From contig NZ_VIGW01000011.1 in the NCBI RefSeq assembly GCF_007858435.1, forward strand, positions 1 to 64,000: 64,000 bases of DNA, in the 5' to 3' direction. Made by a program: the position numbers and the translations under genes. The DNA comes from Tsukamurella asaccharolytica. GTDB lineage: Bacteria; Actinomycetota; Actinomycetes; Mycobacteriales; Mycobacteriaceae. Shown piece after piece: positions 6,158-10,423 of this stretch. Numbering within the stretch: position 1 is the stretch's first letter; the number at the start of each line of letters is the position of its first letter. The notes beneath the pieces were generated by a model. That model saw only the letters and a program-made list of their open reading frames with translations. It did not search any database and was not told the origin of the DNA.

Positions 6158-7092
6158 TGCGGCTCCTCTTCGCGGGCACCCCCGAGCCCGCCGTGCCGGC
6201 GCTGCGCGCTCTCCTCGCCTCCGACCACGAGGTCGTCGGCGTGCTCACCCGTCCCGACGCCCGCTCCGGGCGAGGCCGTGGCGTGCGGCGCTCGCCCGTC
6301 GGGCAGGTCGCCGACGAGGCGGGGATCCCGGTGCTCACACCCGCGACCCTGCGCGACCCGGAGGCGCGGGCGGCGATCGTCGATCTGGCGCCGGAGTGCT
6401 GCCCGGTGGTCGCCTACGGCGGGATGATCCCGCCCGACCTGCTGGACGTGCCCGACCACGGGTGGATCAACCTGCACTTCTCGTTGCTCCCCGCGTGGCG
6501 CGGCGCCGCTCCGGTGCAGGCGGCGCTCGAGGCCGGCGACGAGGTGACCGGCGCCTCCACGTTCCGCATCGAAGCGGGCCTCGACACCGGTCCGGTCTTC
6601 GGCGTGCTCACGGAGCGGATCCGCTCCGACGACACCGCGACGGTGCTGCTCGCGCGCCTCGCCGAGCACGGCGCGGAGCTGCTCACCCGCACCGTCGACG
6701 GGGTGGCGGCCGGCGCCCTGCAGGCCCAGCCGCAGTCCGCGGACGGCGTCTCGCACGCGCCGAAGGTCACCGTCGACGCCGCGCGCGTGCGCTTCGACCT
6801 GCCCGCCGGTGCCGTGGACCGGCACATCCGTGCCATGACCGATGCGCCCGGCGCATGGGTGCCGCTCGGGGACGCGCGGCTCAAGCTCGGTCCCGCGGTC
6901 GTCGCCCCCGAGGCGGAGCGCCTCGCGCCCGGCGAGCTGCGCGTCGGCAAGCGCGAGGTCCACGTGGGCACCGCCACGGCGCCGCTGCGGCTCGGCACCG
7001 TGCAACCGCCCGGCAAGAAGCCCATGCCCGCCGCCGACTGGGCGCGGGGCGCCAGGGCCGAGTCCGGCACGATCCTCGGCGCCGACCGGTGA
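6157..7092 (+). CDS. fmt: Methionyl-tRNA formyltransferase
   Basis: A 311-residue enzyme that formylates initiator Met-tRNA using 10-formyl-THF. The N-terminal domain begins [20 protein letters not shown] and contains the catalytic Asn/His/Asp set in [15 protein letters not shown] and GLDTGPV. The C-terminal tRNA-binding OB-like domain is complete. Start and stop are coupled to the neighbours: TGATG with def and GTGA with rsmB. Confidence 0.95.
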
Positions 7093-8447
7093 CCGATCCC
7101 GCGCGGAGCGCCGCGCTCGAGACCCTCGCCGCCGTCCGCGAGCGCGGCGCCTACGCCAACCTCGTGCTGCCGGGCCTGCTCCGGGACAAGCGGCTCACGG
7201 GCCGCGACGCCGCCTTCGCGACCGAGCTCACCTACGGCACCTGCCGCGCCCAGGGGCTGCTCGACGCGGTGATCGAAGACGCCTCGGGACGTCCGGTCGC
7301 CGAGATCGACGGTCCGGTGCTGGACGCGCTTCGACTGGGCGTCTACCAGCTGCTGCGCACCCGGGTGGGGGCGCACGCCGCCGTCTCCGAGACGGTGGAC
7401 GCGGTCAAGGCCACGTCCGGCCGTGGCGCCTCCGGTTTCACCAACGCGGTCCTGCGGAAGGTCTCCAAGGATGACGAGGACACCTGGGTCGCCCGCGTGG
7501 CCCCCTCGGCCGCGGACGACCTGCTCGGGCACCTGGCCGTGCAGTACGCCCACCCGCGCTGGATCGCCCAGGCCTTCTGGGATGCGCTCCGCGCCAACGG
7601 GATAAGGTCGATGGGGCAGCTGCAGGCGCTGCTTGCCTCCGACGATTCCCGGCCGCCCGTGCATCTCGTCGCGCGCCCGGGGGAGATCTCGGCGGAGGAG
7701 CTCGCGCTCATCGTCGAGGGGGAGACGGGCGGGCTCTCGCCCTACGCGGTGTACTTGCCCGGCGGCGACCCCGGCGCGCTCGAGCCCGTCCGCGACGGCC
7801 TCGCGGGGGTGCAGGACGAGGGGTCGCAGCTGGTGGCCCGCGCCGCGGCCGTCGCGCCGCTCGAGGGTCCCGACGGCGGCCGCTGGCTCGACCTGTGCGC
7901 CGGGCCGGGTGGGAAGGCCGCGCTGCTCGGCTCGCTCGCCTCGATCGACGGGGCCCGCGTCGACGCGGTCGAGCCCGCGGAGCACCGCGCGGAGCTGGTG
8001 CGCAAGGCGGTGCGCGGGCTCCCCGTCGACGTGCACGTCGCCGACGGCCGCGCGTCGGGGTTGGAGCCCGGCTACGACCGCGTGCTGGTCGACGCGCCGT
8101 GTTCGGGCATCGGCGCGCTGCGCCGGCGGCCCGAGGCGCGGTGGCGCAAGCAGCCGAGCGATGTCGCGGGTCTGACGGTACTGCAGCGCGAGCTGCTCGC
8201 CGCGGCCGCGGCCCTGACCCGGCCGGGCGGCGTCGTGCTCTACGCGACCTGCTCGCCGCACGTGGCTGAGACGCTCGGCATCGTCGGCGACGACGAGCTC
8301 CTCGCGTCCGCCGGACTGGAGCGCATCGACACCCGCCCCCTGGTCCCGGAGACAGGCCTGCCGCTGGGTGAGGGCCCGCACGTCCAGCTCTGGCCGCACC
8401 TCCACGGCACCGACGCCATGTTCTTCCAGGCCCTCCGCAAACGCTAA
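7089..8447 (+). CDS. rsmB: 16S rRNA (cytosine-967-C5)-methyltransferase RsmB
   Basis: A 452-residue SAM-dependent RNA methyltransferase. An N-terminal NusB-like domain ([30 protein letters not shown]) precedes the Rossmann methyltransferase domain. SAM motif I is [18 protein letters not shown]. The two family cysteines are in DAPCSGIG and YATCSPH. The GTG start overlaps the fmt stop by 4 bases. The def-fmt-rsmB order is the classic translation-initiation and ribosome-modification cluster. The stop lies one base before the first palindromic repeat. Confidence 0.94.
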
Positions 8448-9432
8448 CCCGATTGAACGACGTTCTGGAGTTTCCGACCTGCGGTTTTACTCTCCAGAAC
8501 GTCGTTCAATCGGTGGATCTTCGGGAGTTTGAGGGGCGGGACGGTCGGCGACGGTCCCTGCCAGCCTCGGGTGCGTAGCTCGCGGGCGATGCGGTCGAGG
8601 AACGCCGCCCGGCCGCTCAGCAGCATCGGCGACGTCACGCGGATGATCGTCCACTGCTGTCCGGTGATCGCGTTCCATCGCGCGATGTCGATGCGCTGCT
8701 GCTCACCCGACCGGTGGTAGCCACCGTCGTACTCGATGGCGACGCGATACCGCGCCGAGCCCAGATCGACGTGGAACGGCGTCCCCGGGACCGGCTGTTG
8801 AGGGCGGAAGAAGTCGAGGCCCGATCGATGGACGACGAGGCGGGAGTACGTCTCCCAGGGGAGTGCGCGCCATTGCTGGCCTCGGCCACGACGGCGCGGA
8901 CCCGGTTCGCTCCGTACAGGCCGGGATGTGCGTCGAGGTAGGCGAGAAGGGCGGCCTTCGTGGTCAGGGACCTGCCTAGCCGGTCGACGCCGATGAACTG
9001 ATCGACCCCCACGATCTTCTCGTCACCCTCGGCGAATCGCGCCAGGTCGACGGCGGTGCGAACGATCGATGTGGCGACGTGTCCGGACACGGTGACGACG
9101 TCCTCGGCCGGAAGGTGACCGCAGCGCATCATCACGCCGCGTCGCTTCCCCTGTGCGGGGAGCCAGATCTCCGGTCTGTGGCCGGCGGCGTACTCGACGC
9201 CGTGCAGAGCCGCGGCGCTCCAGCCGACGAACACGAGATCGGGGTAGGCGAACTCGAGCGCAGCGAGAATGTCGTCGTCCGACGGGTTTGCAGCGCCGTC
9301 GTGGCGGATGCCGTGGATGACGGGGGTCGACTCCCGCCGGAGAGCATGCTCGGTCCGGCCCCCGAGGAGTTCCCGCCTGCGTCCCATCACATCAATTGGA
9401 CGCACCAGCCCTGCGATCGGATCCCCGCCCAA
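8444..9432 (-). pseudogene. Frameshifted AbiEi-like/DUF559 (Vsr-like nuclease fold) gene
   Basis: The first part (from about 9387) reads as an N-terminal domain typical of actinobacterial DUF559 proteins (FAYPDLVFVGWSAAALHG, then TSIVRTAVDLARF). The reading breaks near 8866-8880, where EAS continues in another frame as QWRALPWETYSRLVVHRSG. That second frame holds the DUF559 core: FHVDLGSARYRVAIEYDGGY, then HRSGEQQRIDIARWNAITG and QQWTIIRVTS, with PD-(D/E)XK/Vsr-like acidic positions. It runs on through the first palindrome to a stop at 8444. A one-base-scale frame change separates the halves, so the gene is either dead or carries a sequencing error. The start is uncertain (TTG at 9432, or ATG/GTG near 9387). 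Confidence 0.7.
8449..8513. repeat. Palindromic repeat copy 1 (hairpin, 59-bp identical core)
   Basis: Arms 8452-8470 and 8492-8510 are perfect 19-base inverted repeats around a 21-base loop; flanking bases extend the stem to 22 pairs. The 59-base core 8452-8510 is identical, including the asymmetric loop, to copy 2 at 9436-9494, in the same orientation. It lies between the convergent ends of rsmB and the DUF559 pseudogene and could act as their terminator. It also codes for the tail of the DUF559 frame. Confidence 0.95.
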
Positions 9433-9433
9433 T

Positions 9434-9496
9434 CAATTGAACGACGTTCTGGAGTTTCCGACCTGCGGTTTTACTCTCCAGAACGTCGTTCAATTG
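9434..9496. repeat. Palindromic repeat copy 2 (hairpin, 59-bp identical core)
   Basis: Arms 9436-9454 and 9476-9494 surround the same 21-base loop as in copy 1, exactly 984 bases downstream; the stem here extends to 21 pairs. It lies 15 bases beyond the stop of the LGFP-repeat gene (minus strand) and just before the 5' end of the DUF559 pseudogene. It could terminate the LGFP gene. The two copies together bracket the DUF559 gene like a cassette. Confidence 0.95.
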
Positions 9497-9511
9497 CGAG
9501 GAGGGGGTGGC

Positions 9512-10423
9512 TCAGGCCTTGAGGACGCCGCCCTTGGTGAATTCCTGGGCGCCGTTCTTGGCGTCGCCCTTCGGGTAGCCCATGCCGAAGGCGCCGCCGC
9601 CCTTGACCCACTGGTCCTTGATCTTGCCAGAGACGACGTGCGCGCCGTTCTCGGGCGACCAGACGATCGAGCCGTTCTGGAAGTCGTTGTAGGCGCCCGC
9701 GACGGAGCCGGCGGTCGGACCGCCGACGGAGAGCTCGCTCATCAGCGGGAAGCCCAGCTTGCCGGTGGGGCCGCCCTCCTTGAGGTAGACATCGCGGATC
9801 GCACCGGTGACGCCTGCCGCCCTGCCGCCGTTGACCTTCGGGTTCCAGTAGATGGTGCCCTTGGTGAACTCCTGCGCCTTCGCGCCGCCCGCGACGTCCT
9901 TCTCGACGCCGAGGGGCTGGCCGTACTTCTTCTGGCCGCCGTCCTTGGTGAAGGTGTCGTTGATCGCGCCGGTGACCGCGAACTTGAGCGGCTCGTCGGG
10001 CTTGGTGTCGGCTGCGGGGGTGGTCGCCGCGGCTTGACCGGCGAGCAGTTGGCCGAGGAGCTTCTGCGCGTTCGGGTCGCTGCCGAACATCTTCATCAGC
10101 GTCGCCACGTCGGTGGTCGGGAGCTGGCCGGTCGCGAGGATCTGCTGGACACCGGGCGTCTTCGCCAGCTCGGCCAGCGCGGGCTGCGCGGAAGCGGGAA
10201 CCGCGTTGGCGGTGGAGACCAGCGGGGTGCCCGCTGCGGCCGGTGCGGGCGCGGCAGGTGCGGCGGCGGGCGGTGCCGCAGGTGCGGCGGGGGCCGCCGC
10301 GGGCGCGACGGGGACCGCGGGTACGGCCGGCGCGACGGGATCGGCCATGGCGGGTGCCGCGGCGACGAGGGCAGCCGCGGCGACAGCGACGAACGTGGTC
10401 ACGGTGGTGCGTGCGATCCGCAT
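9512..10423 (-). CDS. Secreted LGFP-repeat cell-wall protein
   Basis: A 303-residue exported protein. A signal peptide (VAVAAAALVAAAPAMA) precedes an Ala/Pro-rich low-complexity linker of about 45 residues. The C-terminal half has LGFP-type repeats (GQPLGVEKD...AQEFTKGTIYW; LGFPLMSEL...YNDFQNGSIVW; GMGYPKGDA...AQEFTKGG). LGFP repeats are known from mycolate-containing actinobacteria and are thought to anchor proteins to the cell wall or contribute to envelope integrity. The ATG has a GAGAGG site 6 bases upstream. No enzymatic domain is visible. Confidence 0.85.
   Translation of the reverse strand: MRIARTTVTTFVAVAAAALVAAAPAMADPVAPAVPAVPVAPAAAPAAPAAPPAAAPAAPAPAAAGTPLVSTANAVPASAQPALAELAKTPGVQQILATGQLPTTDVATLMKMFGSDPNAQKLLGQLLAGQAAATTPAADTKPDEPLKFAVTGAINDTFTKDGGQKKYGQPLGVEKDVAGGAKAQEFTKGTIYWNPKVNGGRAAGVTGAIRDVYLKEGGPTGKLGFPLMSELSVGGPTAGSVAGAYNDFQNGSIVWSPENGAHVVSGKIKDQWVKGGGAFGMGYPKGDAKNGAQEFTKGGVLKA

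Follow-up and report, generated by a model that had tools for sequence, protein, structure and literature searches.

The window, a stretch of 64,000 nucleotides of the Tsukamurella asaccharolytica genome (contig NZ_VIGW01000011.1, assembly GCF_007858435.1), contains a gene of the AbiEi-DUF559 type with a palindrome at each end. The gene occupies positions 8,444–9,432 of the reverse strand and is flanked by rsmB (7,089–8,447, forward strand; start judged visually on its ORF), with which it is convergent, and by a gene for an LGFP-repeat protein (9,512–10,423, reverse strand), the order being rsmB, palindrome 1, the DUF559 gene, palindrome 2 and the LGFP gene. Palindrome copy 1 (8,449–8,513) begins one base past the rsmB stop and has perfect arms of 22 bases; copy 2 (9,434–9,496), with perfect arms of 21 bases, lies between the start of the DUF559 gene and the end of the LGFP gene. 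The loop is 21 bases long in both. As the initial annotation reported, the copies share a 59-base core without a mismatch (8,452–8,510 and 9,436–9,494), in the same orientation and 984 bases apart from start to start; these are its two occurrences on the forward strand of the whole window. Folded as single-stranded DNA, copy 1 has a free energy of −27.4 kcal/mol (z −10), matched by none of 200 shuffled sequences. Assignment to a recognised RNA family was rejected, the two Rfam matches being microRNA models below their gathering scores. Among genome contigs, the palindrome pattern was found in Tsukamurella records only (16 of 16 stretches).

The gene is frameshifted, as had also been noticed. 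Its DUF559 (Vsr-like) domain matched at 8,576–8,809 (C2, reverse strand) with 27.3 bits against a curated cut-off of 20.6. The frame is broken near 8.86 kb: the upstream ORF (8,635–9,432) matches the genes of three other Tsukamurella genomes, G002 (T. ocularis), G005 and G008, in frame up to residue 192 only, and the nuclease part lies in a different frame, in a downstream ORF ending at 8,444. In G002, G005 and G008 the gene is open and palindrome 1 is read through as the C-terminal tail of the protein, in agreement with the proposal that copy 1 also codes for the tail of the gene. The two copies differ at 5 of 59 positions in G002, 6 of 59 in G008 and 5 of 59 in G005. Since the same pair occurs at the same site with these 5–6 differences, it is older than these species, and the earlier idea that the identity of the window's copies reflects a recent duplication had to be abandoned. 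Judged from the sequences, the two identical copies look homogenised.

Comparison of the rsmB-LGFP site in 15 genomes revealed two palindromes with the gene in the window's genome (G000), G002, G005 and G008, deletions in G012, an insertion within palindrome 1 in G009, and a single palindrome without the gene in G003, G004, G014 and G015. The gap is occupied by a plain GC-rich hairpin instead in G001, G006, G007 and G013, and no palindrome was seen at this site in G010. The four sites with one palindrome support the suggestion of the initial annotation that a lone palindrome separated rsmB from the LGFP gene before a gene plus a palindrome was gained, or after their loss. At the G009 site (contig C1, L129), the loop of palindrome 1 is interrupted by about 1.3 kb, bordered on each side by CCTGC and having short inverted termini; the insertion resembles an insertion sequence that targets palindromes. 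The DUF559 gene of this locus seems split over two frames.

DUF559 matches were found in 50 of the 61 genomes sampled from the taxonomic family. The 16 Tsukamurella genomes yielded 125 matches, of which 95 loci were read; three with ORFs of about 1,420–1,430 aa, presumably of helicase type, were dropped, leaving 92. No matched palindromes were seen at the dropped loci, and one locus (L202) was kept although its flanks match theirs. The rsmB-site matches of G002, G005, G008 and G009 are outside the 95 and were read separately. A locus passed the pair test if the regions around the gene start and stop shared a direct repeat with a score of at least 40 and both copies contained a hairpin; repeats longer than 110 bases were scored as failures in the DUF559 and control sets alike. 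With orthologous units of different species each counted once per species, 27 of the 92 Tsukamurella loci passed, against none of 338 similarly sized control ORFs (Fisher p = 3e-20), all taken from three Tsukamurella stretches and unscreened for DUF559 content. For 16 other genera of the taxonomic family, 8 of the 29 loci among the matches listed passed (Fisher p = 6e-10 against the same 0/338). Under the strictest setting 16 Tsukamurella loci, 6 loci of other genera and no controls remained. Without the hairpin filter the numbers were 39/92, 15/29 and 11/338, and with a looser palindrome measure 27/92, 11/29 and 5/338; the top five controls passing these weaker tests were long coding repeats. 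A phylum-wide sample of 27 loci was reduced to 23 by removal of L333, at a contig start, and three that were too short; it includes small DUF559 proteins of another type. Three of these 23 loci passed, and one of the three has a stem about 22 bases long at each end. In G089, which shares only the phylum with the window's genome and lies outside its class, each end of a DUF559 gene (L324) has a copy of a 54-base repeat; the two copies differ at one position, and the stem is about 22 bases long.

Failing loci form the majority in the Tsukamurella (65/92), other-genus (21/29) and phylum (20/23) sets. Some of them have weak or one-sided palindromes, and a group of ten conserved loci (the L018 group) has no palindromes passing the test. 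The initial annotation held that DUF559 genes lacking palindromes would speak against a common unit; this objection applies to the 65 Tsukamurella loci that fail the matched-pair test and not to the remaining 27.

The Tsukamurella and other-genus sets together contain 35 units whose palindromes fall into 25 clusters, with a spacing of 905–1,219 bases (median 983) and repeats of 39–84 bases. At the loci read, the DUF559 units lie between genes. Examples from other genera are L234 and L224, with an identical palindrome of 40 and 58 bases, respectively, on each side. The window's own genome has six further DUF559 genes and a second unit (C11:82,055–83,112), in which palindromes with a different stem, at 82,055 and 83,055, surround another DUF559 gene. 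The palindrome pairs of G015 and G003 also bracket DUF559 genes, and pairs besides that of the window are spaced 985–1,000 bases apart.

The dispersal of two palindrome families was searched in Tsukamurella genomes. The window sequence as a query detected 11 distinct copies in its genome, and a covariance model built from them had matches in 14 of the 16 Tsukamurella genomes. A looser pattern, fixing just stem parts and CTGnG in the loop, delimited a TTGAAC superfamily of 117 copies in 11 of 16 genomes, with none in the reversed control. Stems vary (GACGTTCTGGAG, ACCGTTATGGAG, ACTGTTTCTGTCC and others), and the loop core near GACCTGCGGTTT is mostly kept. Seven pairs spaced about 1 kb apart account for 14 of the 117 copies, and 103 are outside pairs. 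An unrelated family (AAGCG, AAGCGTTCTGCGA) occupies 35 places in 10 of 16 genomes, eight of them forming four pairs 951 bases apart; in G001, G004, G005, G007, G008 and G009 its palindromes occur without any pair. Palindromes apart from DUF559 genes had likewise been named as evidence against a unit, and most superfamily copies are of this kind, the 14 paired ones being the exception. Such solo copies weigh less as a refutation, because a REP-like system predicts them too and matched pairs are far above the control.

The location of 24 copies was examined in three 400-kb stretches with gene calls made by our own rough method. Sixteen were near a gene 3′ end, compared with 11%–13% of random positions and 30%–36% of random positions outside predicted genes; 12 were between convergent genes and two inside predicted genes. 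Transcripts of convergent genes may also end at solo copies. These positions, together with the plain GC-rich hairpin in the rsmB-LGFP gap of four relatives, are what would be seen if the palindromes were ordinary bidirectional terminators or 3′-end hairpins and the DUF559 gene merely had one at each end. We consider this quite unlikely, since no T-run intrinsic terminator was found at the locus (8,300–9,700, in a scan restricted to loops of 3–8), a shared, nearly invariant sequence of 57 bases whose loop core is conserved is unexpected of plain terminators, and so is paired matching around one gene family, absent from all 338 control ORFs.

Nine unit proteins were scanned with domain models. 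DUF559 scored over the cut-off in all nine, MTES_1575 REase in one and AbiEi_4 in three, none of them from units of the TTGAAC type. PADLOC AbiEi models matched six of six unit proteins, the window type only at 7.9e-5, and a homing-endonuclease model gave weak matches to three of the six (E 0.003–0.009). Invariant alignment columns include E185, D214, E225 and H231. Against solved structures, the alignment profile matched 3hrl (E 2e-9) and the "Mobile intron protein" 3r3p (E 7e-4), the latter of which we take to be I-Bth0305I. Structure prediction from two sequences, with a mean pLDDT of 35, was too poor for use. No AbiEii partner gene was present by name at two annotated loci. Matches to the T. 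ocularis protein included six plasmid records, three of them from Tsukamurella, and one phage record; an alignment search of viral contigs gave three matches with 24%–35% identity, and the phage collection showed no sign of phage carriage of the unit.

AbiEi proteins bind inverted repeats, which lends some support to a regulatory explanation: the upstream palindrome would be the operator of a self-regulating AbiEi-type gene, the downstream copy its terminator, and the solo copies other sites of the regulator. The AbiEi_4 and PADLOC AbiEi matches (3/9 and 6/6 proteins) point the same way. However, the downstream copy and most of the examined solo copies are at gene ends, and both ends of a unit share the whole palindrome including the loop, making this arrangement very unlikely.

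Protein and palindrome similarity are correlated among 37 unit proteins (Mantel r 0.56, reached in none of 5,000 permutations), the Spearman coefficient over all pairs being weak (0.17), and across the 25 clusters related proteins tend towards related palindromes. This correlation and the matched pairs at many DUF559 loci strengthen the proposal that a Vsr-like nuclease with its own palindromes forms a unit resembling REP/RAYT. A genome may contain two palindrome dialects: in G000 they account for 12 and 5 of 17 copies, and other genomes have two as well. In G005, 15 of 16 copies are of one dialect.

Concerted change was evaluated at eight places, comprising the two rsmB copies and six sites of three syntenic 400-kb stretches that have a palindrome in G000, G002 and G005. 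For four of the six, both flanks serve as anchors in each of the three genomes; for those at G000 15552 and 192430, one flank does so in G000. Within G005 the arms have an identity of 98.1%, against 82.3% with G000 and 81.6% with G002 at orthologous places. The value is 91.0% within G000, 88.8% within G002 and 91.0% between G000-G002 orthologues; the paralogous arms of these two genomes are thus no more alike than their orthologues, and the concerted signal rests on G005. The G002 copy at 238134 is closer to the G005 dialect. Among 22 copies, 98.9% of the arm cells are paired and covariation is 0.243 versus 0.102 in shuffled alignments (0/500 shuffles). Five pairs changed on both sides in these copies, a number equalled in 59 of 500 shuffles.

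Two solo palindromes of G005 lying 150 kb apart (C12:140132 and C12:290235) are identical over 57 bases, and the orthologous sites differ in other species. The L020 site has units in seven genomes, with two different palindrome types; one of these types, in T. tyrosinosolvens, is located between purB and the phosphoribosylaminoimidazolesuccinocarboxamide synthase gene. At another site represented in two species (L170 and L187), the flanks are 93%–94% identical, the proteins 74%, and the palindromes score just 15, suggesting, from the sequences compared, fast change or cassette exchange.

Gene-less relatives with exactly one palindrome are known from two further sites. At the 82-kb site of C11, units are present in G000 and G002, and G005 has a single palindrome of its own dialect. 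At the L203 site, inspected in 16 genomes, units occur in G002, G012, G013 and G015; G001 has one cognate palindrome with junctions at most 2 bases from those of G013, G005 has a hairpin of a different dialect, and no such palindrome was found in G000, G004, G007, G008, G009 and G010. Other sequence of 0.6–1.06 kb fills this site in G003, G006 and G014, and G011 has no downstream match. Neither the syntenic stretches nor L203 yielded a clean empty site free of palindromes. In one further place, G002 and G005 have palindromes of two different dialects and G000 has other sequence of about 580 bases (G000:C11:58,845–59,425).

Sites with one palindrome are equally expected from gain and from loss, the latter through recombination of the direct repeats. 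Units could also be gained and lost solely by ordinary homologous recombination between palindromes, with the palindromes supplying homology only, as solo LTRs do, the solo copies being relics, and the DUF559 protein acting in defence or mismatch repair. One palindrome in some gene-less relatives at three sites is what direct-repeat recombination predicts, the AbiEi models matching all six proteins would agree with a defence role, and a Caulobacter DUF559 protein has been proposed for mismatch repair in the available part of one account (PMC12907096). Nevertheless, we regard recombination as the sole process as unlikely: it leaves unexplained why the G005 copies share a dialect in both arms, unlike the orthologous sites elsewhere, and why protein and palindrome are correlated, and copies outside pairs (103) far outnumber those inside (14).

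The closest known counterpart is the REPtron, described in the available parts of PMC3733652 and PMC8266576 as a palindrome-bordered gene with many dispersed palindromes, often at gene ends, whose enzyme and palindromes diverge together by lineage. Like a REPtron, composed of a TnpA_REP/RAYT gene and REPs, the units have a palindrome-bordered gene and dispersed copies of the same palindrome, at least in the two families searched, and the enzyme and palindrome vary together by lineage, within the limits of the coefficients given above. They differ in having a Vsr-like DUF559 nuclease in place of a Y1 HUH transposase, in their longer repeats (39–84 bases versus 20–40 for REPs) and in lacking the foot tag of REPs in most TTGAAC-type copies, the only type scored (GTAG within 10 bases outside the 57-mer in 1/24, CGTC in 3/24). 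A classical RAYT-driven REP was rejected, as the Y1 transposase (PF01797) was detected in none of the 16 Tsukamurella genomes and in 5 of 14 control genomes. With this enzyme absent, the system is REPtron-like in its working and not a REPtron. CGTC-tagged REPs, a class of dispersed extragenic palindromes with no known transposase in the available part of PMC3733652, are similar in being dispersed without RAYT; their sequence differs, and that part of the account mentions no DUF559 link.

EDxHD (Vsr-like) homing endonucleases provide a second parallel. The nuclease domain of the units is related in sequence to 3r3p, and a review (PMC3943268, available part) describes I-Bth0305I as a dimer on its target, which at almost 60 base pairs is about as long as the palindromes here. 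In contrast to these endonucleases, nothing in the units points to an intron or intein, the gene has an intact palindrome on either side and does not interrupt a target, and the N-terminal part of the protein is AbiEi-like. AbiEi antitoxins and DUF559 proteins of unknown function share the domain content, and palindrome bracketing was not found for them in the open-licence literature searched. Term searches of the same literature found no published link between DUF559 and palindromes.

Taken together, these data suggest that the window contains a decayed, selfish-looking unit of about 1 kb, consisting of a palindrome, an AbiEi/DUF559 nuclease gene and a second palindrome, and that such units are REPtron-like or homing-like, with a Vsr-type nuclease acting on its own palindromes. 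The anatomy of the units is firmly supported by the sequences; to this interpretation we assign a probability of about one half. The N-terminal AbiEi-like region would recognise the cognate palindrome, as a duplex or an extruded hairpin, and the C-terminal Vsr-like nuclease would nick or cut at it. Repair could then use another palindrome of the same cell as the source from which palindrome sequence, and occasionally the entire gene, is copied; the unit would thereby spread into palindromes already there, and recombination between two flanking copies would leave a single one. Dispersed palindromes would be drawn towards the dialect of the resident nuclease. Binding or cutting of the palindrome by the DUF559 protein, with homogenisation as a consequence, is what we infer from the sequence patterns, and a nuclease acting on the palindrome is probably the best single explanation for the paired repeats, lineage dialects and concerted change. 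Against such a drive, a palindrome-cutting nuclease would also cut its own flanks.

With a hairpin that also occurs singly at other gene ends, such a unit resembles a selfish, REP-like element run by a nuclease not known for that role. It is possible, though doubtful, that dispersed bacterial palindromes are driven by a second and unrelated class of enzymes, the AbiEi-DUF559 proteins, as lineage-specific dimeric Vsr-like homing nucleases cutting palindromes throughout the chromosome; repair would rewrite these to the dialect of the nuclease and at times insert its gene, a hairpin gene drive that would be widespread in Actinomycetota. Nucleases of the DUF559 family are common in this part of the phylum and have no assigned role there; tied to their own palindromes, they would gain a concrete, testable substrate and become a possible driver of palindromic repeats where bacteria lack a RAYT transposase. 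The palindromes would likewise offer a natural case of dispersed DNA hairpins changing sequence together.

Two T. tyrosinosolvens records labelled as plasmids, NZ_LR134464.1 (L371) and NZ_LR134454.1 (L372), contain core genes, purB and purD among them, and have the appearance of chromosome pieces. Over 3,246 bases, the L203 locus of G015 is identical to L372.
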